From NCBI RefSeq assembly GCF_027922265.1, contig NZ_BSFI01000007.1:446979-510978 (forward strand): a DNA stretch of 64,000 bases, read 5' to 3'. Shown here one piece after another: positions 11,927 through 25,096 of this stretch (position 1 is its first letter; the number at the start of each line of letters is the position of its first letter). Made by a program: the position numbers and the translations under genes. The notes below the pieces were generated by a model. The model saw only the letters and a program-made list of their open reading frames with translations. It was not told the DNA's origin and did no database searches. The DNA comes from Hansschlegelia plantiphila. Lineage in GTDB: Bacteria; Pseudomonadota; Alphaproteobacteria; Rhizobiales; Methylopilaceae.

Positions 11927-13210
11927 ATGCCCGTCGTCCTTTATGTTCTCGGCGCTGGCCTCCTCGCCTGGAGCGGTGTGATGCTCCTGAAGGGCGACGC
12001 TTTCGCGACGCTCGACATCGCGACGACGCTCGCCGGCGCGGGGGTGATCGCGATCGGGCTCGGCGCGGTGGCGGGGGCGGTCGCCCGTCTGGGACGGACG
12101 ATTTCGTCAGCTGCGGAAGGACGCTCAGCGCCCGGCGAACCATCGGTCCGGCCGACGTCGGCCCCGGCCGCGCCGTCTGGTCCTGCCGAAGCGCCCGCCG
12201 CGCCGGAGCCGAAGCGGCGCGCCGAGCCGAGGTTGCCTCCGGCGCCGACGCTCCCGGCCGATACGCCGGAAACTGCGCCCGAGCCGAAGCCCGCCGCGCC
12301 GGACGTCAAGCTCGACGTCGCCGCCGCACGCCCCCAACGGCCCCCGGTGGTGGTCGCCCGCCCGCGCCGCGCGCCGAAGGCTGAGCCTTCGGAAGCCCGC
12401 GACGAACAGGCGTTCGAGGGACCGATCGTCGTCGCGCCGAAATTTTCGGGCTTTGCAGTCCAGCGGCCCGAGGCGCCGCCGGCGGAAGTCGCCCGACCCG
12501 AGGTCACCCCGCCGCCAGCAGAGCCGTCGCCTGGGACGCAGCCGTCCGAGGTTGCTGCCGTCGAGGACGTCGAGGCGGCGCCGGTCGAGCCGCCCGTTGT
12601 CGAGGCCGCCACGGAGGGCGTGGCCGACTCGGCTCCGGAGGCCTCCGCCGGGCCGGAGCCTTCAGTCGCCGCGCGGGAGGATGACGTCTCGCCGCCTGCA
12701 AAAACGCCGCCGCCCGACTGGCTGGTCCGCGCCCGGGCGCGGAGGGAGGCCCGTGCAAAGAGCGAACCTGTTGTCGAGGCGCCGACGACGCCCGTCCCGC
12801 CGGCTGCCGAAGCCGAGGAGCCGTCCCGCATCGTCATCCGCGAGGGCGAACTGAACGGCGTGACGTATCGGTTTTTCCAGGATGGGTCCGTCGAGGCGCA
12901 GTCCGCTCACGGCGTCAGGCGTTTCCCGACCGTGGAGGCGTTGCGCGCGACGGTGCTCGGCGCCCGCGGAAAGGACGGCGCGCCGCCCGATCCGTCCCGA
13001 CCCGATTTCGCCGAGGCCGCTGACATCGACGGCCGAACGACGCCAGAGGACGGCCCTGCGGAGGGCGAGCGGATGGACGCCCCACGCTTTAGGGCGGCGG
13101 GGGCCGACGAGCCGGCGTCCCCCGACCAGAGCTTCGACGAAAACGAGGCGCTCGACGCCGCGATCGCGGAGCTCGAAGGCGGACGCGATCCGGCTGCCAC
13201 CGGTCGGTGA
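11927..13210 (+). CDS. Proline/alanine-rich membrane protein with a small conserved C-terminal motif, unknown function
   Basis: 427 residues from the ATG at 11927. Residues 1-55 hold two hydrophobic segments (VVLYVLGAGLLAWSGVMLL and AGAGVIAIGLGAVAGAVARL). A long disordered stretch rich in Pro, Ala and Glu follows (about 65-290). A short folded-looking segment, RIVIREGELNGVTYRFFQDG then SVEAQSAHGVRRFPTVEALR, lies near residues 303-345, and the tail is acidic. No catalytic motif is recognised. The composition suggests a membrane-anchored scaffold or envelope-associated protein, but that is inference. A frame extending upstream to 11747 is unlikely to be translated because it runs through the sodB promoter region. 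Confidence 0.7.
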   Translation: MPVVLYVLGAGLLAWSGVMLLKGDAFATLDIATTLAGAGVIAIGLGAVAGAVARLGRTISSAAEGRSAPGEPSVRPTSAPAAPSGPAEAPAAPEPKRRAEPRLPPAPTLPADTPETAPEPKPAAPDVKLDVAAARPQRPPVVVARPRRAPKAEPSEARDEQAFEGPIVVAPKFSGFAVQRPEAPPAEVARPEVTPPPAEPSPGTQPSEVAAVEDVEAAPVEPPVVEAATEGVADSAPEASAGPEPSVAAREDDVSPPAKTPPPDWLVRARARREARAKSEPVVEAPTTPVPPAAEAEEPSRIVIREGELNGVTYRFFQDGSVEAQSAHGVRRFPTVEALRATVLGARGKDGAPPDPSRPDFAEAADIDGRTTPEDGPAEGERMDAPRFRAAGADEPASPDQSFDENEALDAAIAELEGGRDPAATGR

Positions 13211-13235
13211 AGCCGACGCTTGGCGGAGTCGGCTT
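13210..13235. terminator. Bidirectional hairpin between convergent genes
   Basis: A perfect 8-bp stem, AAGCCGAC / GTCGGCTT, has a 10-base loop and lies precisely between two convergent stop codons. The plus-strand side continues TTTC and the minus-strand side ends in a short T run after CTT. It probably terminates both transcripts. Confidence 0.6.
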
Positions 13236-15368
13236 TCAGTCCGTCGCTGCGTCTGGGTGTCCGACAGCCTTCAGCGCGAAGGCGTAGGACAGGCCGACCT
13301 CCTCGAGCCGGTCGAACCGCCCCGCCGCGCCGCCGTGGCCTGCGTCCATGTTGGTCTTGAGGGCGATCGGCTTCTCCGACGTGGTCGCTTCGCGCAGCCG
13401 GGCCACCCATTTCGCCGGCTCCCAATAGGTCACGCGCGGGTCGGTGAGGCCCGCGAGCGCGAGGATTGCGGGGTAGGGCCGGGGTTTCACATTGTCGACC
13501 GGGCTGTAGCCGAGGATGCGGTTGAAGGCGCCCTCGTCGCGGATCGGGTCGCCCCATTCCGGCCATTCCGGCGGCGTCAGCGGCAATGTGTCGTCGAGCA
13601 TCGTCGTCAGCACGTCGACGAAGGGAACGTCGGCGATGATTCCGGCGAACAGCTCCGGCCGGAGGTTCGCGACCGCGCCCATCAGCATGCCGCCCGCGGA
13701 GCCGCCATGGGCGACGATCCGGCCGGCGCTGGTGAAGCCGTCGGCGATCAGCTGGTCCGCGCACGCCGCGAAGTCGGTGAAGGTGTTGGTCTTGTGGGCG
13801 AGCTTGCCGTCCAGGTACCAGCCCCAGCCCTTCTCGGCGCCGCCCCGAACATGGGCGATGGCGTAGACGAAGCCGCGATCGACCAGCGACAGCCGTCCTC
13901 CCGAGAAGCTCGCGGGCAGCGCGACGCCATAGGCGCCGTAACCGTAGAGCAGGCAGGGCGCGGAGCCGTCGAGCGGCAGTCCGCTCTTATGGATGACGGT
14001 GATCGGAACGGACGCGCCGTCCGGCGCGCGGGCCTCGAGGCGCCGCACGACATAGGCTGCGGGGTCGTGGCCGGACGGAATCTCCTGGCGCTTGCGTAGG
14101 GTCCGGTCACGGCTCGCCATGTCGTAGTCCCAGACTTCGGAGGGTGTCGAAGGCGAGGAGTAGGAGAAACGCGTGAGATCGGTGTCGAATTCTCGGCCGG
14201 ACTCGACGCCGAGCGAGTAGGCCGCCTCGCCGAACGAGATCCGGTGCTCCTCGCCGTCCGCCAGCGCCCGCACCACGATCCGCGGCAGCGCATTGACGCG
14301 CTCGAGCCGCACGAGATGACGAGCCGTCACCGCGTGGTCGAGCATGTAGACCCCGGGCGCGTAAGGCGCGATCTCGCGCTGGGGTCCGGCCGGGTTGTCC
14401 GAGTCGACCGCGACCAGCTTGAAGTCGACCGCGCCGTCGGCGTTCGTCCGCAGGATCAGGCTGGACCGTCCGTCGAGCGCAGGATGGTGGTCGAGCTCGT
14501 AGCGGACGCCGGCCTCCCGCGGCCAGACGACGCGCGGGGCCGCAACGGGATCTGCGCGCTCGATCAGGTGCGCCTCGGTCGTGTCGTGGTCGGAGACCGT
14601 GATCACGCAATATGTCCCGGATCGGGTCTCCTCGACGCCGACGAACCAGCCGGGATCGTCCTCCTTGAATACGAGCATGTCCGCGTCCGGAGTCGTGCCG
14701 AGCAGGTGACGGTAGACCTCCAGCGCGCGATGCTGTTCGTCGAGGCGGACATACCAGAAGCTACCGCAGTCCGCGGCCCAGACGGCGGCGCCCGTCGTGT
14801 CCGGCACGACATCGGAGAGGGCTTCGCCCGTCGCGACGTCCTTGACGCTGATCGTGCGGAACTCGGATCCCTTGTCGTCCGCGCTCCAGGCGAGCAACGC
14901 ATGGTCGGGCGAAACGCGCCACGACCCGAGCTGGAAATAGGCGTGGCCTTCGGCCAGCGCGTCGCCGTCGAGCAGGATGGTCTCCTCGCCGCCTCCTATC
15001 GGCGTGCGGACGACCAGCGGATGCTGGCCGCCGGCGCGGTGACGCACAGCGTATGCGAACGGACCCTCGACGACCGGCGCGCCGGAATCGTCCTCCTTGA
15101 TACGCCCGCGCATCTCTGCCACCAGCCGTGTCTTCAGCCCGTCGAGCGGACTGAGCAGCGCGGCGGCGTAGGCGTTCTCAGCTTCCAGGTGGGCGCGAAT
15201 GTCGGTCGGCAGCAGCGAAGGATCGCGGATCGCCTCGCGCCAATTATCCGCACGCAGCCAGGCGTAGGGATCTTCGAGCGACTGGCCATGAACGACGCGG
15301 CTCGTCGGCCGGCGCTCGGCGCGGGGCGGAGAAGCGACGGTTGGCGTCGCCGTCTCGGGTCCGGACAT
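13236..15368 (-). CDS. ptrB: Prolyl oligopeptidase family serine peptidase, oligopeptidase B (S9A)
   Basis: 710 residues, typical for oligopeptidase B. The N-terminal beta-propeller begins after a start rich in Pro and Arg (SRVVHGQSLEDPYAWLRADN is the family entry motif). The C-terminal alpha/beta hydrolase domain has YGYGAYG, the nucleophile motif GGSAGGMLMGAVAN, and the acidic and histidine residues near DPRVTYWEPAKWVARLR and NMDAGHGGAAGRF. The enzyme cleaves short peptides after basic residues in the cytoplasm or periplasm. No signal peptide is seen. It ends against the hairpin shared with the neighbouring convergent gene. Confidence 0.9.
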   Translation of the reverse strand: MSGPETATPTVASPPRAERRPTSRVVHGQSLEDPYAWLRADNWREAIRDPSLLPTDIRAHLEAENAYAAALLSPLDGLKTRLVAEMRGRIKEDDSGAPVVEGPFAYAVRHRAGGQHPLVVRTPIGGGEETILLDGDALAEGHAYFQLGSWRVSPDHALLAWSADDKGSEFRTISVKDVATGEALSDVVPDTTGAAVWAADCGSFWYVRLDEQHRALEVYRHLLGTTPDADMLVFKEDDPGWFVGVEETRSGTYCVITVSDHDTTEAHLIERADPVAAPRVVWPREAGVRYELDHHPALDGRSSLILRTNADGAVDFKLVAVDSDNPAGPQREIAPYAPGVYMLDHAVTARHLVRLERVNALPRIVVRALADGEEHRISFGEAAYSLGVESGREFDTDLTRFSYSSPSTPSEVWDYDMASRDRTLRKRQEIPSGHDPAAYVVRRLEARAPDGASVPITVIHKSGLPLDGSAPCLLYGYGAYGVALPASFSGGRLSLVDRGFVYAIAHVRGGAEKGWGWYLDGKLAHKTNTFTDFAACADQLIADGFTSAGRIVAHGGSAGGMLMGAVANLRPELFAGIIADVPFVDVLTTMLDDTLPLTPPEWPEWGDPIRDEGAFNRILGYSPVDNVKPRPYPAILALAGLTDPRVTYWEPAKWVARLREATTSEKPIALKTNMDAGHGGAAGRFDRLEEVGLSYAFALKAVGHPDAATD

Positions 15369-15536
15369 GGCGGATGAGTCCTCATGCGATGGGGCGCGTC
15401 GGGGAAATCGACGGGAGATCCGGCCGCGAACCGGAGAGCGACTTGCGCAGTCATCGGTTATGCGATGATGCGGCGGTTTTATGGCCAGTCATCACTGACC
15501 TCGTCAAACAAAGCTGCAGGAAAGATCGGACAAGAA

Positions 15537-15565
15537 CTTGCGCCGCAGTCGAGGATTGTCTATCT
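15537..15565 (+). promoter_or_regulatory. Putative housekeeping promoter of mucR
   Basis: CTTGCG, 17 bases, then CTATCT, which is close to the alphaproteobacterial consensus CTTGAC-N17-CTATAT. Transcription would start near 15572 and leave a leader of about 135 bases before the mucR ATG. It is the best promoter match in this 337-bp intergenic region. Confidence 0.5.
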
Positions 15566-15638
15566 AGCGAGCATGATGGTTCGCTTCGAGCGATGAACGC
15601 TGTAACGGCGTGATAAGCTGTCCAATGATGCAGTGATA

Positions 15639-15675
15639 TGACCGACGGGTGGGCTTATACCTTCGAGGTCGGTCA
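15639..15675 (+). promoter_or_regulatory. Inverted repeat in mucR leader
   Basis: TGACCGAC and GTCGGTCA form a perfect 8-bp dyad with a 21-base loop, ending 30 bp before the mucR start. Ros/MucR proteins repress their own genes, so this could be a leader hairpin or part of an autoregulatory site; neither role is shown by sequence. Confidence 0.3.
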
Positions 15676-15705
15676 GCCCCCAACACATTTACGGAACCAG
15701 ATTTC

Positions 15706-16122
15706 ATGAGCGACGACGCGCTTTCCTCGAACTACGTCGAACTCGCAGCCGACATCGTGTCTGCTTACGTCAGCAACAATTCTGTTTCGGTGGCCGATCT
15801 GCCGGTGCTGATCAACGAAGTCCACCTCGCGCTGACGCGGGTTTCTTCCGGGGCAGCGGCGCCTGCGACCGAAGCGTTGAAGCCCGCGGTGCCGCCCAAG
15901 AAGTCGATCACGCCCGACTACGTCGTCTGTCTCGAGGACGGCAAGAAGTTCAAGTCCCTCAAGCGCCACCTCCGCACCCAGTACAACATGTCGCCGGAAG
16001 ACTATCGCGAGAAGTGGGGTCTGCCGCCGGACTATCCGATGGTCGCGCCGAACTATGCGGCGGCGCGTTCCGAGCTCGCGAAGAAGATGGGACTCGGCCA
16101 GCAGCGCAGCAAGCGCGCCTGA
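15706..16122 (+). CDS. mucR: MucR/Ros family transcriptional regulator
   Basis: 138 residues from the ATG at 15706; the frame is open from 15649 but [20 protein letters not shown] is the usual N-terminus. The prokaryotic zinc-finger core is intact: [15 protein letters not shown], then the [20 protein letters not shown] block. MucR/Ros proteins are H-NS-like regulators of exopolysaccharide, motility and virulence genes in Rhizobiales. This one is a candidate silencer of the AT-rich islands elsewhere in the window (inference). It is convergent with ureG, 16 bp apart. Confidence 0.93.
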
Positions 16123-16138
16123 CCAGCGCGTCGTCGTT

Positions 16139-16753
16139 TCAAGCGAGCCCACCGGCTTTCTCGATGAACGCCACGATGGGGTCCACGCCAATCCCGTTCC
16201 GCACGCTCGCGAACACGTAAGGCGCGCCCTTGCGCATCCGGATGGTGTCGGCCTCCATCACCGCGAGGTCGGCCCCCACCATCGGCGCGAGGTCGGTTTT
16301 GTTCACCACCAGCATGTCGGAGCGGGTGATGCCGGGACCCCCTTTGCGCGGGATCTTCTCGCCGCCGGCGACGTCGATGACGTAGATCGTGATGTCGGCG
16401 AGCTCCGGCGAGAAGGTCGCCGCGAGGTTATCGCCGCCGGACTCGATCAGGATGAGGTCGAGCTTCGGGAAGCGCCGACTCATCTCGGCCACCGCCGCGA
16501 GGTTGATCGAGGCGTCCTCGCGGATCGCGGTGTGCGGGCAGCCGCCGGTCTCGACTCCCATGATGCGGTCTTCCGCCAAGGCGCCGGCCTCGACCAGGAT
16601 GCGCGCGTCCTCCTTGGTGTAGATGTCGTTCGTGATCGCGCAGATCTCGTAAGAGTCGCGGAAGGCGCGGCAGAGCGCCTCCATCAGCGCGGTCTTGCCG
16701 GAGCCGACCGGGCCGCCGACGCCGATCCTGAGAGGTCCGTTAGAGGAGGTCAT
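16139..16753 (-). CDS. ureG: Urease accessory GTPase UreG
   Basis: 204 residues. The P-loop [20 protein letters not shown] is at residues about 11-30. The nickel-binding and switch features follow: [11 protein letters not shown], the CPH motif in [32 protein letters not shown], and NKTDLAP for guanine specificity. UreG delivers nickel to the urease active site with UreD, UreF and UreE in a GTP-dependent manner. The ATG overlaps the 3' end of ureF by 4 bp. It is the last gene of the urea operon. Confidence 0.96.
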
Positions 16754-17466
16754 GAGCGGAAAAGCCTCGTGTACTGGGTCTCGTGCCGGGCGGAGCCGAG
16801 GTCGAGCCGGAAGGTGGCGTTGGCGAGATCGTCGAGCGTGGCGTGCGCGGCGGCCGCCGCAAGCCGGTTCGCGAGCGGCGCGATCCGCCCGACGATCTTC
16901 GCGCCGGATGTCTGGCCGATCGGCGCCAGGCGCACCCCCGCGGAGACCAGCGCCTGAGTGAGCGCGACGAGGTAGGCGGAGGCCGCCGTCTCCGGCGGCA
17001 CGCCGTGGCAGGCGGCTGCCGCGCCGACCGCGACGGGGTAGGCGACCTCGCCGCCAAGCCTTTTCCCGACCGCCAGCAACCGCTCGTTCGGCCACGCCGC
17101 GAGCACGGCGTCGAGGAAGCTGCGGCCCTGCTGGCTGGTCTCGAGGTGCAGTTCCCGCGTGGGCGCGAAGGCGAGCGCGAGTTCGTTGGCTTCGGCCAGC
17201 ATTCCGAAATCCTCGGCCGCGGCCGCCCGATGCGCGACCTGCAGCAGGATGGCGTCGTTGCGGCCGAGGCCGAGGGAGAGGGCGTCGGTCAGCCAGATCT
17301 CCAGCGTCGCTTCGTCCCTGACGTCGCCGTCCTCCACCGCCTGTTCGAGGCTGTGGCTGTAGGCGTAGCCGCCGACGGGGAAGGCGGGCGACAGCCAGGC
17401 GAGGAGGGTGGTTACGGCGGCCGCGGGTCCGTGCGCCGAACGCGTCTCCGCATGCTCCGCCGTCAT
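16750..17466 (-). CDS. ureF: Urease accessory protein UreF
   Basis: 238 residues from the ATG at 17464-17466. The family signature [24 protein letters not shown] is at residues about 20-45, and the C-terminus ends near [13 protein letters not shown] as in other UreF proteins. UreF bridges UreD and UreG during nickel insertion. The start codon lies inside the outer arm of a palindromic element (17461-17556) that fills the ureE-ureF gap, and no good Shine-Dalgarno is visible; no later ATG/GTG precedes the conserved region. The upstream in-frame extension to 17544 is encoded by the palindrome and is probably not native protein. Confidence 0.9.
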
Positions 17467-17556
17467 GCCGGGCTTGTCCCGGCATCCATTTCCGCGCCGG
17501 GCGCAAGGTCGCGTCGGCCGTCGCGGAAATGGGTTCCGGGACAAGCCCGGAACGAC
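17461..17556. repeat. Large palindromic intergenic element (REP-like) between ureE and ureF
   Basis: The outer arms CCGGGCTTGTCCCGG (17468-17482) and CCGGGACAAGCCCGG (17536-17550) are perfect inverted copies. Inner arms CATTTCCGCG (17487-17496) and CGCGGAAATG (17522-17531) are also perfect. The edges read CGTCATGCC and GGAACGACC, giving the CGTCATnCC...GGnACGAC layout seen in mobile palindromes of many Rhizobiales genomes. A related copy lies at 23064-23150 in the same operon. Confidence 0.75.
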
Positions 17557-17577
17557 CGCCTCAGCCGGTCGTCGGCT

Positions 17578-18054
17578 TCACTCATGCGCATGATCGTGGC
17601 CGCTATACGCCCCTGTCTCCGGCTGGAACGGGCGCCTCACGACCCGCGTCGCGCCGCCGAGGCCGCGGACCATCTCGACCAGCACGTGATCGGGCGCGAC
17701 GTAGATCGCTTCGTCGGTCACCTCCGCCGGCGTGTGGCGGTTGCCGAGGTGCCAGGCGATCTTGGCGAGACGGAGCGGGGTCGCGGCAGTGACCTCGACG
17801 AGCTCCTCCTCGGCCGCGCGGACGAGAACCAGCCGCCCGTCCTCGAGCTGCAGCGCGTCGCCGTCGTTGAGGTTCGCGGGGCGGGGGAGATCGAGCAGGA
17901 AGTCGAGGCCGCCGTCGGCCGTCATCGCGAGACGCCGCCGCCCGCGCGCCTCATGGTCGAGCGTGATGGCGTCGGCGACGGTGGCAGTTTTTACCGCGGG
18001 GCGGCGGAGGATGGATGTGGCACGTGCTGTCGATACTGATTTAAGCTGCAACAT
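17578..18054 (-). CDS. ureE: Urease accessory protein UreE (possible internal start within the fusion frame)
   Basis: From the ATG at 18052-18054 the product is 158 residues, the normal UreE length. It contains ATSILRRPAVKTATVADAIT, LDHEARGRRRL, the metal-site region WHLGNRHTPAEV and a C-terminal His-rich tail, SGHDHAHE. UreE is the nickel metallochaperone for urease. The expected N-terminus (M-x-RATSILR) is replaced by MLQLKSVSTARATSI, showing that the upstream AT-rich insertion begins at or just before the native start codon. The Shine-Dalgarno upstream of this ATG is weak. Confidence 0.7.
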   Translation of the reverse strand: MLQLKSVSTARATSILRRPAVKTATVADAITLDHEARGRRRLAMTADGGLDFLLDLPRPANLNDGDALQLEDGRLVLVRAAEEELVEVTAATPLRLAKIAWHLGNRHTPAEVTDEAIYVAPDHVLVEMVRGLGGATRVVRRPFQPETGAYSGHDHAHE

Positions 18055-18741
18055 TACGCGCCAATCTTCATTTATAGCAGCAATTCTATCTTCTTTACTT
18101 GCCTTCGGCAGGCGCATGTTTGTACCTAAAACGCCCGGATGGCTGTGTGCGTAAATAGAAAAATTCCGACCTAGATTATTATCATTTATCTTAATTGCAT
18201 TTCTTGAATCTCTTGTTGTCTTCCAATCTGTAGATAAAGAATATCGATCTAGAACAAAATTAAATGATAGCTGACCAAGGCAGGCAATTTTTTTGAGATT
18301 CGGCATATAGGAAAGAACGAAATCAAAAACCTGATGAGATCCTTTTTTCCAGCCTCGAGGCAATCTCGTTGATGCGCCTACGCCGACCCTTAGGAAGAAA
18401 CATGCGCTAATGTAGAGCGCCCCACAGGTCGTATTGCTACTACCATCTATGCGTGCAATGCGATTGTTCTTTGTAAGAAGCTCGGCAATACGTTGATTAG
18501 TGAAGAATGTAGGATCATGGCTGTAGGGATCTGCCTTGCCAGCGGCTAGGCGGTCATCAATGACGTGATCAGGTGCAAAATGCTCAGCGACAATGAGAAG
18601 GTCGCCGTTCCAATCGCCGCAGAGGCTCTCCGTCCCGAACAAGTTTCGTTGTCCAATTTTCCATTCATAGATGTTCTTAAATCCGGTTGCTCTTAATTCG
18701 CGAATGCTGTCGGGGACAGGGGGCGTTATGAAGTGAGGCAT
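17578..18741 (-). CDS. In-frame fusion of a uracil-DNA-glycosylase-like domain to UreE
   Basis: 387 residues with no stop between two unrelated parts. Residues 1 to about 229 are encoded by AT-rich DNA. They look like the uracil-DNA glycosylase superfamily: GDWNGDLLIVAEHFAP (nucleotide-pocket-like motif, about 42-57), NTTCGALYISACFFLR (103-118), KKIACLGQLSFNFVL (150-164) and a late AHSHPGVLGTNMR (198-210) like the HPS motif. Residues about 230-387 are UreE. The ATG at 18739-18741 is only 2 bp after the ureC stop. Whether the cell makes the fusion, an internally started UreE, or both is unknown. The glycosylase assignment rests on weak motif resemblance. Confidence 0.6.
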   Translation of the reverse strand: MPHFITPPVPDSIRELRATGFKNIYEWKIGQRNLFGTESLCGDWNGDLLIVAEHFAPDHVIDDRLAAGKADPYSHDPTFFTNQRIAELLTKNNRIARIDGSSNTTCGALYISACFFLRVGVGASTRLPRGWKKGSHQVFDFVLSYMPNLKKIACLGQLSFNFVLDRYSLSTDWKTTRDSRNAIKINDNNLGRNFSIYAHSHPGVLGTNMRLPKASKEDRIAAINEDWRVMLQLKSVSTARATSILRRPAVKTATVADAITLDHEARGRRRLAMTADGGLDFLLDLPRPANLNDGDALQLEDGRLVLVRAAEEELVEVTAATPLRLAKIAWHLGNRHTPAEVTDEAIYVAPDHVLVEMVRGLGGATRVVRRPFQPETGAYSGHDHAHE

Positions 18742-18743
18742 GC

Positions 18744-20456
18744 TCAAAACATAAAGTACCGCTGCGCCATCGGCAGCACGTCTGCGGGCTCGCAGATCAG
18801 CAGCTCGCCGTCGGCGCGGACGTCGTAGGTCTCGGCGTCGATCTCGATGACGGGGGTGGCGTCGTTCAGGATCATCGACTTCTTGCCGATGCCGCCGCGG
18901 ACGTTCTCGACCGCGACCATCGGCTTGGCGGATCGGATCCTGTCCGGCAGCCCATCCTCGATCGCGGCCTTGGACACGAAGGTCAGCGAATTCGCCAGCG
19001 GCGCCGGGCCGAAGGCGCCGAACATCGGGCGATAATGCACGGGCTGCGGCGTCGGGATCGAGGCGTTGGGGTCGCCCATCGCCGCCATCGCGATCACGCC
19101 GCCCTTGATGACGAGGTCCGGCTTCACGCCGAAGAAGGCCGGCGTCCACACCACGAGGTCGGCGAGCTTGCCGGCCTCGACCGAGCCGACGTGCCGCGAG
19201 ACGCCGTGCGCGATCGCGGGGTTGACCGTGTATTTCGCGATGTAGCGGCGGGCGCGAAGATTGTCGTTGTTTCCGGTCTCGCCGGGCAGGGCGCCGCGCT
19301 GGCGCTTCATCTTGTCCGCGGTCTGCCAGGTGCGGATGACGACCTCGCCGACGCGGCCCATCGCCTGGCTGTCGGAGGACATCATCGAAAGCGCGCCGAG
19401 GTCGTGCAGCATGTCTTCGGCTGCGATCGTCTCTTTCCGGATGCGGCTCTCGGCGAAGGCGAGGTCCTCCGGGATCGACGGATCGAGGTGATGGCAAACC
19501 ATCAGCATGTCGAGATGCTCGTCGATGGTGTTCTTGGTGTAGGGCCGCGTCGGGTTGGTCGATGACGGCAGCACGTTGGCGAGCCCCGCCACCTTCATGA
19601 TGTCCGGCGCGTGGCCGCCGCCGGCGCCTTCGGTGTGGAAGGCGTGGATTGTGCGGCCCTTGAAGGCCGCGATCGTGTCCTCGACGTAGCCGCTCTCGTT
19701 CAACGTGTCTGAGTGGATCATCACCTGTACGTCGAGTTCGTCGGCGACGGTGAGGCAGCAGTCGATCGCGGCGGGCGTCGTGCCCCAGTCCTCGTGCAGC
19801 TTGAGCGCGCAGGCGCCGCCGCGGACCTGCTCCTCGAGCCCGGCAGGCAGCGAGGCGTTGCCCTTGCCGGCGAAGCCGAGGTTCATCGGGAACGCGTCGG
19901 CCGCCTCGATCATCCGGGCGAGATGCCAGGGCCCCGGCGTGCAGGTGGTCGCGTTGGTGCCGGTCGCCGGCCCCGTGCCGCCGCCGAGCATCGAGGTGAC
20001 GCCGGACGCCAGCGCCTCCTCGATCTGCTGCGGGCAGATGAAGTGGATGTGGCTGTCGAAGCCGCCGGCGGTGATGATCTTGCCTTCGCCGGCGATCACC
20101 TCCGTGCCGGGGCCGACCACGATGTCAACGCCCGGCTGGACGTCCGGGTTGCCGGCCTTGCCCAACTTCACGATGCGCCCGTCGCGGATGCCGATGTCGC
20201 ATTTGAAGACGCCGGAATGGTCGAGCACCACCGCGTTGGTGATGACGGTGTCGACCGCCCCTTGCGCCCGCGTGGCCTGGCTCTGGCCCATGCCGTCGCG
20301 GATCGTTTTGCCGCCGCCGAACTTCACCTCCTCGCCATAGGTGGTGAAGTCGCGCTCGACCTCGATGATCAGCGTGGTGTCGGCGAGCCGGATGCGGTCG
20401 CCTGTCGTCGGGCCGAACATGTCGGCGTAGGCCGAGCGGGAGATTTTTGCGGGCAT
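18744..20456 (-). CDS. ureC: Urease subunit alpha
   Basis: 570 residues, the standard length. Active-site features are intact: [10 protein letters not shown] (nickel-binding His pair), the carbamylated-lysine region [34 protein letters not shown], the flap [22 protein letters not shown] and the catalytic Asp region [15 protein letters not shown]. Urease hydrolyses urea to ammonia and carbamate. The ATG follows the stop of the preceding membrane-protein gene with no gap, and the stop is 2 bp before the glycosylase-like fusion gene. Both neighbours are AT-rich, whereas ureC has normal high GC. Confidence 0.97.
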
Positions 20457-20891
20457 TTAGGCGACCCCAGATTTAATGGGCCAAAAAGGCCCGTGACAAA
20501 GAATCACGAGAAAAAATAGTAACGTTCCAATAATCAAGCCCAGCCACACGATCAACCTTGAAGTTTTCATGATCGCAGATCTATGAAGTCGATAGTAAGA
20601 TGTGTAACCGAGAATTTCGACGTTCCTGGCCTCGATCTCTGCTATGTAATTGTTCAAGACGCCAATTGTGCTATCTATAGCCGAGGTCCTAATAGCCCCA
20701 GCGCCCGCTAACGCAAGTGGGATAAACGATAGGTAAGGTATAAGCCCGGCAGCGGCTTGCGTTATTATAAAAATATATACGGCGGAAATCGCGCCAATAA
20801 CGTATATCTCAAGCTGATCCATCCATTTTATGTCTTCGAGTATAAGCTGTTTGCAGAACTTATATTCTTCGACTTCTAAGGGATGAGTCAT
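20457..20891 (-). CDS. AT-rich predicted three-helix membrane protein inserted between ureAB and ureC, unknown function
   Basis: 144 residues from the ATG at 20889-20891, 1 bp after the ureAB stop; its own stop abuts the ureC ATG with no gap. Charged residues 1-28 precede two adjacent hydrophobic segments (about 29-50, YVIGAISAVYIFIITQ; 51-67, IPYLSFIPLALAGAG). A polar helix (68-108, containing LNNYIAEIEARNVEILGY) and a third membrane segment (112-132, LIVWLGLIIGTLLFFLVILC) follow. No family could be named. Codon use is markedly AT-richer than in the urease genes, which points to recent acquisition. The precise junctions keep the operon transcript and translation order intact. Confidence 0.75.
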   Translation of the reverse strand: MTHPLEVEEYKFCKQLILEDIKWMDQLEIYVIGAISAVYIFIITQAAAGLIPYLSFIPLALAGAGAIRTSAIDSTIGVLNNYIAEIEARNVEILGYTSYYRLHRSAIMKTSRLIVWLGLIIGTLLFFLVILCHGPFWPIKSGVA

Positions 20892-20892
20892 C

Positions 20893-21513
20893 TTAAAGCT
20901 CACCCATGACGTCCTGGCGAAACCCATAGACCTTCCGCGCTCCGGAGAACGGCACGAGCGTCACCGTCCGCGTGGCGCCGGGTTCGAAGCGGATCGCCGT
21001 CCCGGAGGCGATGTCGAGGCGCATGCCGCGGGCGGCGGCGCGGTCGAAATCGAGCGCGGGGTTGGTCTCGAAGAAGTGGTAGTGGCTGCCGACCTGGATC
21101 GGCCGGTCGCCGGTGTTCGCGACCGAGACGGTGACGGTCTTGGCGCCGGCGTTGAGTTCGATGTCGCCCGGCGCGGCGATGACCTCGCCGGCCGACAATT
21201 CGGAAGCCTCGCCGCGGATCGGGTGATGGACGGTGACGAGCTTCGTCCCGTCCGGGAAGGTCGCCTCGACCTGAATGTCGTGGATCATCTCCGGCACGCC
21301 GTCCATCACCTGGGACGCGGTCAGCACATGGGCGCCGGCGGACATCAGGTCCGCGACCGTGCGGCCGTCGCGGGCGCCCTCGACGACGAAGTCGGTGATC
21401 AGCGCGATCGCTTCCGGATGGTTCAGCTTCACGCCGCGCTCCAGCCGGTTGCGCGCGACGATCGCGGCCATCGCGACCAGCAGCTTGTCCTTTTCGCGGG
21501 GGGTGAGATTCAT
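20893..21513 (-). CDS. ureAB: Fused urease gamma-beta subunit
   Basis: 206 residues. Residues 1-100 are the gamma subunit ([54 protein letters not shown]). Residues about 105-206 are the beta subunit ([55 protein letters not shown]). Most proteobacteria encode these separately as ureA and ureB; a fused form is known in Helicobacter and some alphaproteobacteria. The product forms the urease core with UreC. It starts 6 bp after the ureD stop. Confidence 0.95.
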
Positions 21514-21519
21514 GAAGCC

Positions 21520-22368
21520 TCAGCAGGACCAGACGCGGGGGAGGGGGCGGGCGAGCAGCAATGGCAGAACGGCGTGGGCGGCGTCGCGCAGGCGTTCGCC
21601 GAACGGGCTCAGCAGGCGCAGGACGAGCATGCCGTTCCAGGCGCTGGCGCCGGCTTCGACAGCGTGATGCTCCAGCGCCTCGCGGACCGCGGCGAGCCGG
21701 GCTTCCGCGTCCGGCGCGACATAGAGCAGGGTGGCGAGCGCTACGGAGCCCGCGGCGACCGTGCGCTTCGCCAGAATCTCGCGGATCGGGCCGACGAAGC
21801 TCAGCGTCTCGGCGAAGACCAGCCCGCCGCCGCGGCGCACGCGCCAGCGGTCGTCCAGCATGCCGCCCTCGACCGTCTCTCCGCGGGCGACGCGCCCGAA
21901 CACCAGCGCCTCGTAGACGAGCAACCGGCCGTCGGAGGCGACGTCGGCGTCGAGCCGGCGGGACAGGCGCGAGCGGTCGAACAGAATCGTCTCCTGCGGC
22001 AGCCAGCCGAGCGTCGCGCCGGCCTCGACGGAAAGCCTCGTCTCGACATGGGTCGTCGCGCCGTCGGAGCGATAGACGCGCTCGGCGCCGGGGGTGGAGA
22101 GGGCGACCGCGGAGTCCGGGCCGGCCTCGACCGAGACCGTCATGCGGTCGCCGCAGGCGAGGCCGCCCGCGACGTTCAGCATTACGGCGTCGAGGCCGTG
22201 CTCGGCGCGGGGGATGCGGATGCGCGAGGCGCCGCCTTCGGCAAGGCGGGTCACGCGCGAACCGCCGCCGGAGGTCTCCACGCGCAGCGCGATCGAGCCT
22301 TCCGAGCGCTGGCGGGGCGGGGCGGGGACGCCGCCCAGTATCTCAGAAGGCGAGTCGCTGGCGTACAT
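21520..22368 (-). CDS. ureD: Urease accessory protein UreD
   Basis: 282 residues. Family blocks are present: AVMLNVAGGLACGDRMTVSV, TPGAERVYRSDGATTHVETR, LGWLPQETILFDRSRLSRRL and WRVRRGGGLVFAETLSFVG. UreD is the first accessory protein to bind apo-urease and provides the nickel tunnel towards the UreF-UreG complex. Its start overlaps the end of urtE by 26 bp, joining the urea-transport and urease halves into a single operon. Confidence 0.93.
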   Translation of the reverse strand: MYASDSPSEILGGVPAPPRQRSEGSIALRVETSGGGSRVTRLAEGGASRIRIPRAEHGLDAVMLNVAGGLACGDRMTVSVEAGPDSAVALSTPGAERVYRSDGATTHVETRLSVEAGATLGWLPQETILFDRSRLSRRLDADVASDGRLLVYEALVFGRVARGETVEGGMLDDRWRVRRGGGLVFAETLSFVGPIREILAKRTVAAGSVALATLLYVAPDAEARLAAVREALEHHAVEAGASAWNGMLVLRLLSPFGERLRDAAHAVLPLLLARPLPRVWSC

Positions 22369-23038
22369 CGTTCCCTTCGAGCGCCTTGGCGTCGCCGCTC
22401 TCGATCACCTCGCCGCGCTCCATCACGATGAAGCGGTCGGCGAGCTCCTGCGCGAAATCAAAGTACTGTTCGACCAGCACGATGGCCATCGTTCCCTTGC
22501 TGCGCAAGTAGCGGATGGCGCGGCCGATGTCCTTGATGATGGAGGGCTGGATGCCCTCGGTCGGCTCGTCGAGCACCAGCAGCTTCGGCCGCGTCACCAG
22601 CGCCCGGCCGATCGCGAGCTGCTGCTGCTGGCCGCCGGAAAGGTCGCCGCCGCGCCGGTGCATCATCGACTTCAGCACGGGAAACAGCTCGAAGATGTCG
22701 TCCGGGATCGTCCGCTCGCCGCGCTTCAGCGGCGCGAAGCCGGTCTCGAGGTTCTCGCGCACGGTGAGCAGCGGAAAGATCTCGCGGCCCTGCGGCACAT
22801 AGCCGATCCCGAGCGCCGCGCGCTCATAAGGCCTCAGGCCCGCGAGCGAGGCGCCGTTGAGGCTGATCGAGCCGCCGGAGATCGGCCGGTGGCCCACGAT
22901 GGCGCGCAGCAGCGACGTCTTGCCGACGCCGTTGCGGCCGAGCACACAGGTCACTTCGCCCGGCGCGGCGGTGACCGACACGCCCTTCAGCGCGCGCGCC
23001 GAGCCGTAATAGAGCGAGACGTCCTCGACGTTCAGCAT
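22343..23038 (-). CDS. urtE: Urea ABC transporter ATPase UrtE
   Basis: 231 residues of the LivF type. Walker A LGRNGVGKTSLLRAIVG, signature LSGGQQQQLAIGRAL, Walker B KLLVLDEPTEGIQPSIIKDI and H-loop EQYFDFA are all present; EGIQPSII after Walker B is diagnostic of UrtE. It is one of two ATPases of the high-affinity urea importer. It is separated from urtD by a palindromic element and overlaps ureD. Confidence 0.93.
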   Translation of the reverse strand: MLNVEDVSLYYGSARALKGVSVTAAPGEVTCVLGRNGVGKTSLLRAIVGHRPISGGSISLNGASLAGLRPYERAALGIGYVPQGREIFPLLTVRENLETGFAPLKRGERTIPDDIFELFPVLKSMMHRRGGDLSGGQQQQLAIGRALVTRPKLLVLDEPTEGIQPSIIKDIGRAIRYLRSKGTMAIVLVEQYFDFAQELADRFIVMERGEVIESGDAKALEGNDVRQRLAF

Positions 23039-23063
23039 GCGGGCGCCCTCAGGGGATGAAGCT

Positions 23064-23150
23064 CGTCATGGTACGGCTTGACCGGACCATCCACTGCTTC
23101 CTCGCGCGCGACGCGCGAGATGGGTCCTCCGGTCAAGCCGGAGGACGACG
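23064..23150. repeat. Palindromic intergenic element (REP-like) between urtD and urtE
   Basis: GGCTTGACCGGA (23075-23086) and TCCGGTCAAGCC (23128-23139) are perfect inverted arms. CCAT and ATGG flank the interior, with a CG-alternating centre (CGCGCGCGACGCGCG). Edges CGTCATGG and GGAGGACGACG match the edge layout of the element at 17461-17556, so the two are members of one family. Confidence 0.7.
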
Positions 23151-23177
23151 CCAGGGTCTGAAGGCGTAGATGCATCC

Positions 23178-23945
23178 TCACCGCCCGAGATACACTTCGA
23201 TGACGCGCTCGTTCGACGACACCGCGTCGAGCGAGCCTTCGGCGAGCACCGACCCTTCGTGCAGGCAGGTGACCTTCACGCCGAGGTCGCGCACGAACAC
23301 CATGTCGTGCTCGACCACCACGACCGAGCGGGTCTTGGCGATCTCGCGCAACAGGTCTGCGGTGTCGGCGGTCTCCTGGTCGGTCATGCCGGCGGCGGGC
23401 TCGTCGACCAGCAGCAGCTTCGGCTCCTGCGCGAGCAGCATGCCGATCTCAAGCCACTGCTTCTGCCCGTGGCTCAGCTCGCTGGCCAGTCGATCGCGCG
23501 AGCCGGTGAGGCGAACGCGCTCGAGAAGGGCGTCGATGCGCTCCTTCTCCTGCCGCGTGCGGCGGGAGAACAGCACGGGGAACGGTCGCCGGTCGGTTTT
23601 CAGCGCGAGCAGGATGTTGTCCTCGACCGTGTGCATGTCGAAGACAGTGGGGGTCTGGAACTTGCGGCCGACGCCAAGCTGGGCGATCGCGGCCTCGTCG
23701 AGTCTGGTCAGGTCGTGGGTGGCCTCGAACAGGGCTTCGCCCGCGTCCGGCCGGGTCTTGCCGGTGATCACGTCCATCATGGTGGTCTTGCCGGCGCCGT
23801 TGGGCCCAATGATCGCGCGCATCTCGGCGTGGTCGATCGAAAGCGACAGCCCGTTCAGCGCCCGGAAGCCGTCGAAGGCGACCGAGACGTTGTTCAGGTA
23901 GAGCAGGGCGTTGGTGACCGGGCCGCCGATCGTCATCCGCGTCAC
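23178..23945 (-). CDS. urtD: Urea ABC transporter ATPase UrtD
   Basis: 255 residues of the LivG type. Core motifs: FDGFRALNGLSLSI, Walker A GPNGAGKTTMMDVITG, LGVGRKFQTPTVFDMHTVED, the signature region LSHGQKQWLEIGMLL and Walker B KLLLVDEPAAGMTDQET. LSHGQ in place of LSGGQ is usual for UrtD. A GTG at 23943-23945 overlaps the urtC stop as GTGA; the ATG at 23936 is the alternative start. The open frame extends to 24110 inside urtC, which is not expected to be coding for this protein. Confidence 0.9.
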   Translation of the reverse strand: MTRMTIGGPVTNALLYLNNVSVAFDGFRALNGLSLSIDHAEMRAIIGPNGAGKTTMMDVITGKTRPDAGEALFEATHDLTRLDEAAIAQLGVGRKFQTPTVFDMHTVEDNILLALKTDRRPFPVLFSRRTRQEKERIDALLERVRLTGSRDRLASELSHGQKQWLEIGMLLAQEPKLLLVDEPAAGMTDQETADTADLLREIAKTRSVVVVEHDMVFVRDLGVKVTCLHEGSVLAEGSLDAVSSNERVIEVYLGR

Positions 23946-25096
23946 TCCGCTGGCGTCGGTTCGGCGGGGGCGCCGGACGCGAGGGCGCTCGGGCCGGCGG
24001 GCAGATCGCTCTTGCGGCGGATCCCGAGCAGGTCCGACGCCGCGCCCACGATGCCCTTGGGAATGAGCAGCGTCGTCGCGACGAACAGGCCGCCGAGCGC
24101 GAACAGCCACAGCGACGGCAGCACGCCCGTGAACCAGGTCTTGCCGGCGTTGACCGCGAAGGCCCCGAGCGCCGCGCCGACCAGCGTGCCGCGGCCGCCG
24201 ACGGCGACCCAGATCACCGCCTCGATCGAGTTCGCGGGCGTGAACTCAGACGGGTTGATGATGCCGACCTGCGGCACGTAGAGCGCGCCGGCGACGCCCG
24301 CCAGCATGGCCGAGAGCGTGAAGACCGTGAGCTTGTAGTTCTCGACCCTGTAGCCGAGGAAGCGCGTGCGGCTCTCCGCGTCGCGGATCGCGACGACAAC
24401 CTTGCCGAGCTTCGAAGTCACCACCCAGCGGCAGAGCAGGTAGGAGCCCGCGAGAGCCAGCGCCGTGGCGGCGAACAGCGCCGCGCGCGTCGATTGCGCC
24501 TGCACCGAGAAGCTGAGGATCTCCTTGAAGTCGGTGAGGCCGTTGTTGCCGCCGAACCCCATGTCGTTGCGGAAGAAGGCGAGCATCAGCGCGAAGGTCA
24601 TGGCCTGCGTGATGATCGAGAGGTAGACGCCCGTCACGCGTGAGCGGAAGGCGAGCCAGCCGAAGCAGAAGGCGAGCAGGCCGGGGACGGCGACCGCCAT
24701 CATGGTGGCGAACCAGAAATGGTCGAAGCCGAGCCAGAACCATGGCAGCTCCTGCCAGTTCAGGAACACCATGAAGTCGGGCAGGATCGGGTTGCCGTAA
24801 ACGCCGCGCGAGCCGATCTGGCGCATCAGATACATGCCCATCGCATAGCCGCCGAGCGCGAAGAACGCGCCGTGCCCGAGCGAGAGGATGCCGCAGTAGC
24901 CCCATACGAGGTCGAGCGCGAGCGCGAGCATCGCGAAGGCGAGGTATTTGCCGAGGAGCGGCACCAGGTAGTCCGGCACATGCAGGGCGGAGTCGGGCGG
25001 GAGCAGCAGGTTCGACGCGGGGATCAGCACGGCCATGGAGAGCACCACGGCGAGGAAGAGCAGGCCGGCCCCGTCGAGGAAGCGATACCGGCTCAT
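23942..25096 (-). CDS. urtC: Urea ABC transporter permease UrtC
   Basis: 384 residues with about ten hydrophobic segments of the LivM type. Typical features include LALDLVWGYCGILSLGHGAF (about 59-78), GVYLSIITQAMTFALML, GGNNGLTDFK, VAIRDAESRTRFLGYRVENY and VAVGGRGTLVGAALGAFAVN. It forms the channel with UrtB. It is separated from urtB by 79 bp containing a stable hairpin and overlaps urtD by 4 bp. Confidence 0.94.
   Translation of the reverse strand: MSRYRFLDGAGLLFLAVVLSMAVLIPASNLLLPPDSALHVPDYLVPLLGKYLAFAMLALALDLVWGYCGILSLGHGAFFALGGYAMGMYLMRQIGSRGVYGNPILPDFMVFLNWQELPWFWLGFDHFWFATMMAVAVPGLLAFCFGWLAFRSRVTGVYLSIITQAMTFALMLAFFRNDMGFGGNNGLTDFKEILSFSVQAQSTRAALFAATALALAGSYLLCRWVVTSKLGKVVVAIRDAESRTRFLGYRVENYKLTVFTLSAMLAGVAGALYVPQVGIINPSEFTPANSIEAVIWVAVGGRGTLVGAALGAFAVNAGKTWFTGVLPSLWLFALGGLFVATTLLIPKGIVGAASDLLGIRRKSDLPAGPSALASGAPAEPTPAE

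Follow-up and report, generated by a model that had tools for sequence, protein, structure and literature searches.

The fused gene of the urease operon

We describe here a gene of the urease operon found in a 64,000-nucleotide stretch of DNA, which we call the window, and which belongs to a genome designated G000. The features discussed are collected in Table 1. On the minus strand, the TGA of ureC (18744-18746) is followed by two bases, GC, and then by an ATG (18739-18741), from which the frame runs with no stop until the TGA at 17578-17580, giving 387 residues. The end of this frame is UreE, while its beginning stands out by its base composition: GC is 0.43 across 18000-18499, whereas ureC and ureE lie at 0.65-0.72 over most of their length and the window as a whole at 0.66, and the first 231 codons have a GC of 0.44 and a GC3 of 0.42, against 0.72 and 0.88 in UreE. 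The mechanically listed frame extends upstream to 19497, overlapping ureC in another frame; the start of the fused gene can nevertheless be fixed, because the equivalent frame in a second genome, G008, already ends one codon ahead of the ATG.

Table 1. Features of the urease locus in the window and of the corresponding gaps in related genomes.
Feature	Location	Strand	Remarks
Fused ORF (UDG-like part and UreE)	17578..18741	-	387 aa, ATG 2 bp past the ureC stop
UDG-like part, residues 1-231	18049..18741	-	AT-rich; AEHFAP (residues 52-57) and HSHPG (199-203) do not vary between the two species
Linker, residues 232-239	18025..18048	-	Occupies the place of the start codon and first residue of unfused UreE
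UreE homologous region, Arg240 to stop	17578..18024	-	Pfam UreE_N and UreE_C; purifying selection as in unfused UreE
ureC, upstream neighbour	18744..20456	-	Stop 2 bp ahead of the ATG of the fused gene
Second AT-rich insert, between ureAB and ureC	20457..20891	-	144 residues if the ATG is that at 20891; hydrophobic stretches
ureAB	20893..21513	-	Operon context; presumably a gamma-beta fusion
AbiJ_NTD4/PDC-S32 gene, ureC-ureE gap of G010	L037 5861-6727		TGA overlaps the TTG start of UreE
Antitoxin/PIN (VapBC-like) pair of G008, between a urease subunit gene and ureC	L035 7199-7860		Assigned by Pfam
176-residue protein of no known family, ureAB-ureC gap of G001	L028 4297-4824		

The same fusion is found in G008, which we take to be Chelatococcus sambhunathii S14 and which, like G000, belongs to our set of 13 Chelatococcus genomes. 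There (L002 1039-2190), the order is the ureC stop, three bases, the ATG, the first part and UreE, again with no stop between the two parts. The first part is 59% identical between the two species and UreE 86%. An artefact of assembly or sequencing could in principle have erased a stop or the start of UreE, but two genomes with diverged DNA agree, and as the independent copy keeps the frame open at 59% identity, a chance event or a sequencing slip is very unlikely; we consider the artefact practically negligible. The initial annotation had placed the beginning of an inserted AT-rich segment 2 bp downstream of the end of ureC, reading in frame into ureE. The join and the foreign character of the segment are both supported, and the fusion is real and common to two species.

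The identity of the first part

The sequence of the first part resembles little in the libraries searched. With Pfam, nothing above cut-off was found in residues 1-231 (DUF2415 appears at E 0.12-0.19, below its cut-off), and searches with PHROG, PADLOC, NCBIfam and PDB sequences gave no match. The profile of the Pfam uracil-DNA glycosylase (UDG) family, PF03167, has no match at E up to 1 in the protein of either species, so that the first part appears to lie outside this family and to be UDG-like in its predicted fold only. When it was aligned by hhalign with 30 UDGs, the E-value was 0.26 and the score of 14.4 was reached by 62 of 150 column shuffles. The real alignment is colinear over 153 columns, while the five best shuffles cover 13-30 columns; it pairs AE(HFAP) with GE(APG), LYISACF with vYItN, IACLG with vVaLG and HSHPG with HPs/a, at a score no better than that of the shuffles. 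In this non-significant register, Glu53 and His201, which are invariant in both species, fall on the GEAPG Glu and the HP-motif His, respectively, and the predicted recognition strand reads SAC instead of TN or AN. The register is only suggestive, but it keeps the Glu and the His and not the base-reading Asn, and would thus favour a base other than uracil. Family 4 UDGs and UdgX carry the cysteines of an iron-sulphur cluster, including an N-terminal CxxC, a feature not found in all of the 30 UDGs aligned; a CxxC was looked for in the G000 and G008 proteins and not found. Ordinary UDGs are present in both genomes, since PF03167 has four matches in G000 and five in G008, of which, among the matches listed, two and three, respectively, lie elsewhere in the genome at E <1e-25.

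The AlphaFold model of the first part, whose input was an alignment of two sequences, has a mean pLDDT of 55 and a pTM of 0.60, with ten-residue means of 67-85 over residues 131-200; a model of the full fusion (pLDDT 39) was unusable and was discarded. In a Foldseek search of the PDB, the best 26 of 124 matches (E up to 10) are all uracil-DNA glycosylases, the best having an E of 7.6e-3 and none reaching 0.001 or below. With VIA-align, the model reaches a Z of 10.2 to 4zbx, the family 4 UDG of S. tokodaii, over 167 residues with an rmsd of 3.7, while models that have no clear match typically reach 7-8 at best. The 35 best rows (Z of at least 8.0) are all UDGs, mostly UdgX or family 4, with no unrelated proteins among them. 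The best viral structure (BFVD) is a phage UDG-like domain protein (E 1.2e-4, 21% identity). From these comparisons, it is highly probable that the first part adopts the UDG alpha/beta fold. The likeness to the UDG superfamily that had been read from short motifs in the initial annotation is therefore upheld only in part: a low-confidence model gives a UDG-type fold, but no UDG sequence profile matches and the hhalign score is that of the shuffles.

Compared with the family 4 and UdgX enzymes (4zbx, 4zby, 6io9), 167-171 of the 231 residues align in the predicted alpha/beta fold, and the motif-A Glu and the HP motif come in the same order in the non-significant profile alignment. The differences are the following: identity is 7-14%, AEHFAP replaces GEAPG, the CxxC is absent, the domain is fused to UreE, and there is no Asn at the aligned base-reading position (for the role of this Asn, see PMC11078745).

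The UreE half

Residues 246-386 match both Pfam domains of UreE, UreE_N (1.1e-16) and UreE_C (1.1e-25), and the highest-scoring UreE model of NCBIfam reaches 140.4, its cut-off being 144. Unfused UreE proteins in G001, G002, G003, G010 and G012 start with M/L-TRA and then continue with matching sequence, while both fusions retain the Arg-Ala of TRA without a start codon; therefore, the join lies at the start of UreE. The edge around it (residues 232-245) is poorly kept, with the same residue at 5 of 13 aligned codons in the two fusions. The selection acting on UreE is not relaxed: omega is 0.12-0.22 in pairs with a fused copy, against 0.12-0.30 where neither copy is fused (the pair G000-G010 being excluded), so the fused UreE is as constrained as the unfused one. 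By its domains and its constraint, the second half is thus comparable to the ordinary nickel chaperone of urease, from which it differs by lacking its own start codon and by carrying an N-terminal domain of 231 residues. In G008, a draft genome that is 99% complete, the fused copy is the sole UreE_C match; if urease is active there, UreE can only come from the fused gene, whether as part of the fusion or through an internal ATG. In G000, UreE_C is matched a second time, on a different contig, and we note that its contig C2 (257655-299351) carries a second UreC and distant UreE matches.

The internal ATG deserves attention, as one frame could give two products. UreE would then also be made separately from the ATG at residue 230, the fusion would be a device of gene overlap, and the UDG-like part would be carried on the longer product, or degraded. 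This ATG is in frame at the same column in both species, ten codons ahead of Arg240 in the window, and the poor conservation just described for residues 232-245 would agree with it. Met230, however, ends the last predicted helix (216-230), so that it may be kept for structural reasons; the sequence ahead of it offers at best a weak GAAGA, and neither species has a stop separating the two parts. Overall, we regard separate translation of UreE as unlikely.

Distribution and probable exchange between lineages

Among 199 related genomes, there is one other true copy, that of G008, and when the named genome contigs were searched with two short peptide patterns, C. sambhunathii was the sole match. 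Each of the 11 other genomes of the genus set matches UreE, and none of them matches the UDG-like part. The search for this part covered overlapping sets of 199, 397, 385, 398 and 189 genomes. Weak matches outside the two species, to residues 93-139 (L003), 105-171 (L005), 116-196 (L006) and 81-148 (L122), all contain stops and were rejected; no UDG-like gene was recognised among the listed ORFs at the first three of these loci. Scans of viral contigs gave no match to the UDG-like part, nor did tblastn against plasmids and phages at E 0.1. With the G008 protein at E 10, tblastn gave no phage match, and its five plasmid matches (E 4-9), two of which were inspected, were set aside.

This distribution disagrees with the urease gene tree. 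In the DNA tree of the four urease genes, G008 pairs with G010 (100/99) and G000 falls elsewhere, without a settled position of its own; the UreC protein tree also pairs G008 and G010 (94/92). In AU tests, a clade of G000 and G008 is rejected with the four urease genes (p 1.6e-67) and weakly rejected with ureE alone (p 0.028). The segment has also diverged further than the genes on either side: between the two species, the first part has a dN of 0.37 and a dS beyond computation, while dS is 0.39 for ureC and 0.49 for ureE; in a low-GC gene, such an uncomputable dS may partly mean faster change. The same gap between ureC and ureE holds 34 bases in G003, and in G001 and G012 it has no sense-strand ORF of at least 50 aa and is palindromic by eye. 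Most simply, the segment would have passed from lineage to lineage in one block, drawn from a set of divergent alleles outside our sample. An ancient fusion followed by several losses, two separate fusions, or a faster rate in a low-GC gene instead of block exchange are the other accounts to be considered. Inspection by eye of the ORFs within 12000-24000 revealed no recognisable integrase or transposase, and the direct repeats of at least 14 bases within 17400-21100 do not bracket the insert.

Other genes in the gaps of urease operons

The window itself contains a second AT-rich gene, between ureAB and ureC, whose TAA abuts the ATG of ureC. None of the 12 other Chelatococcus genomes matches it, and it finds nothing above curated cut-offs; its weak PHROG matches are to families with no assigned function (best E 0.005). 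In G010, the nearest relative of G008, the ureC-ureE gap holds a candidate defence gene of the AbiJ_NTD4/PDC-S32 type, with relatives of 32-34% identity carried by plasmids of Leptospira and Aquicella. It shares its location with the UDG-like part, but belongs to a different Pfam family and is not fused to UreE. In addition to the antitoxin/PIN pair of G008, genes read as PIN or antitoxin-like from their translations precede ureC in G004, G005, G006 and G009 (L053, L054, L056 and L060), where ureC and the closest ureE are in different places. By our count, a gene of UDG-like, AbiJ or toxin-antitoxin type occurs at a urease locus in 7 of the 13 Chelatococcus genomes.

We also surveyed these gaps more widely, in urease loci only: 50 loci with ureC, from the 98 of 150 genomes that have a strong UreC match, besides five further loci with ureE and without ureC. 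From 35 of the 50 loci, we picked 66 gap ORFs of at least 80 aa, leaving out antisense and shorter ones; some of them may be spurious. Among 25 of the 29 families, the defence-type genes are PIN (7), MazE-type antitoxin (4), ParE (1), ParD (1) and AbiJ_NTD4 (1), and the ordinary ones include GFA (7), ABM (5) and LprI (3), many being metabolic. PADLOC assigned one member each to its AbiJ (PDC-S32) and phospholipase effector models. Gap genes are common across the 50 loci, but many of them plainly have nothing to do with defence, and we rejected the view of urease gaps as hot spots of defence in themselves.

Several other features of these loci can be mentioned. A match to the Rfam family 5' ureB sRNA (RF02514, 79.1 bits) lies at 20017-20302 on the forward strand of the window, antisense to ureC, and may merely mirror the conserved coding sequence of this gene. 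Long imperfect palindromes, which we take to be REP- or MITE-like, occur at 17459-17559 near the ureE-ureF boundary and, by eye, in the ureC-ureE gaps of G001 (L028 6550-6695) and G012 (L039 7165-7260). The ureF match of G012 is split by about 290 bases (L039 8090-8379), possibly an insertion within ureF. The ureC match of G007 has an internal TGA (L034, around 7922), perhaps a sequencing error, this genome being 88% complete. Finally, the window has a lower-GC ORF of 157 aa on the forward strand (15649-16122) that may encode a regulator of the MucR/Ros type.

A probable swapped cargo that may excise bases

Considering all of the above, our preferred account, to which we give a probability of about 0.5 as a whole, is that of a swapped cargo, likely a divergent base-excising enzyme, in frame with UreE. 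A complete UDG-fold domain would have been acquired as cargo in the ureC-ureE gap and joined in frame to UreE, at the cost of the start codon of the latter. It would be translated with the urease operon, in coupling with the ureC stop, as a two-domain protein of 387 residues whose UreE half would still load nickel. The first domain would most likely flip and excise a DNA base, and because its predicted base-recognition strand departs from the usual UDG pattern, the target would more likely be a modified base, of the kind met in phage DNA, than uracil itself. The segment would move among Chelatococcus lineages by recombination through its conserved flanks.

Among the known proteins close to this description are the anti-phage DNA glycosylases Brig1, Brig2 and Brig3, which are, according to PMC11078745 and PMC13160076, divergent members of the UDG superfamily, as the first part would be by fold prediction. 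In PMC11078745, Brig1 is recognised through its structure, its homologues being annotated as hypothetical, and the structure it matches best is again that of the S. tokodaii UDG, with a Dali Z of 9.2. According to the same paper, many Brig1 homologues reside in putative defence islands, whereas the first part sits in a urease operon, and we liken the two by description and fold, not by sequence. Brig3 excises 5hmC and inserts an Asn into DNA, as stated in PMC13160076; Asn208, which is invariant five residues past HPG, would be a candidate for such an insertion.

That the first part is a glycosylase is, in our opinion, somewhat probable, and that it serves defence is plausible, at a little short of an even chance. 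It speaks for the defence reading that other cargo in these gaps, within the genus, comprises a candidate defence protein by PADLOC as well as toxin-antitoxin genes of the PIN type. The domain might instead be a housekeeping repair glycosylase, acting on uracil or another deaminated base and carried in the operon as an accidental passenger. The best PDB matches of the model are indeed repair-type UDGs, and Glu53 stands as in GEAPG in the non-significant hhalign register, but only 2 of the 13 Chelatococcus genomes have the gene, its distribution is at odds with the urease tree, both genomes have other PF03167 genes, and the strand reads SAC, not TN or AN. We find this reading improbable. It is even less probable that the domain excises nothing and is an appendage binding DNA, a nucleotide or a partner in the service of UreE or urease assembly. 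It is fused to UreE in both species that possess it and belongs to no known family, as an appendage might; eleven congeners, however, have a UreE match without it, its distribution disagrees with the urease tree, and its candidate catalytic Glu and His are invariant. In the literature, we found no paper on a urease operon together with a uracil-DNA glycosylase, and nothing relevant came up in searches on UreE fusions, on gap genes or on fusions of glycosylases, within the limits of such searches.

One may go further and see in the urease gaps of Chelatococcus a swap site, where defence-type genes ride a metabolic operon without a mobile element, trading places by recombination in the conserved flanks, and where the fusion to UreE locks the cargo in: as UreE has no start codon, deletion of the cargo would break the nickel chaperone. 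This extension is speculative and we do not expect it to hold, but, if true, it would mean that getting rid of the defence gene would cost the host its urease. If the domain is an anti-phage glycosylase, the Brig idea extends to a sequence group absent from the libraries searched, and defence genes can sit, and even fuse, inside a metabolic operon, beyond the reach of island-based searches. If it is not, the fusion, as the sole UreE found in G008, is still a clean test of how much UreE can tolerate at its N-terminus.
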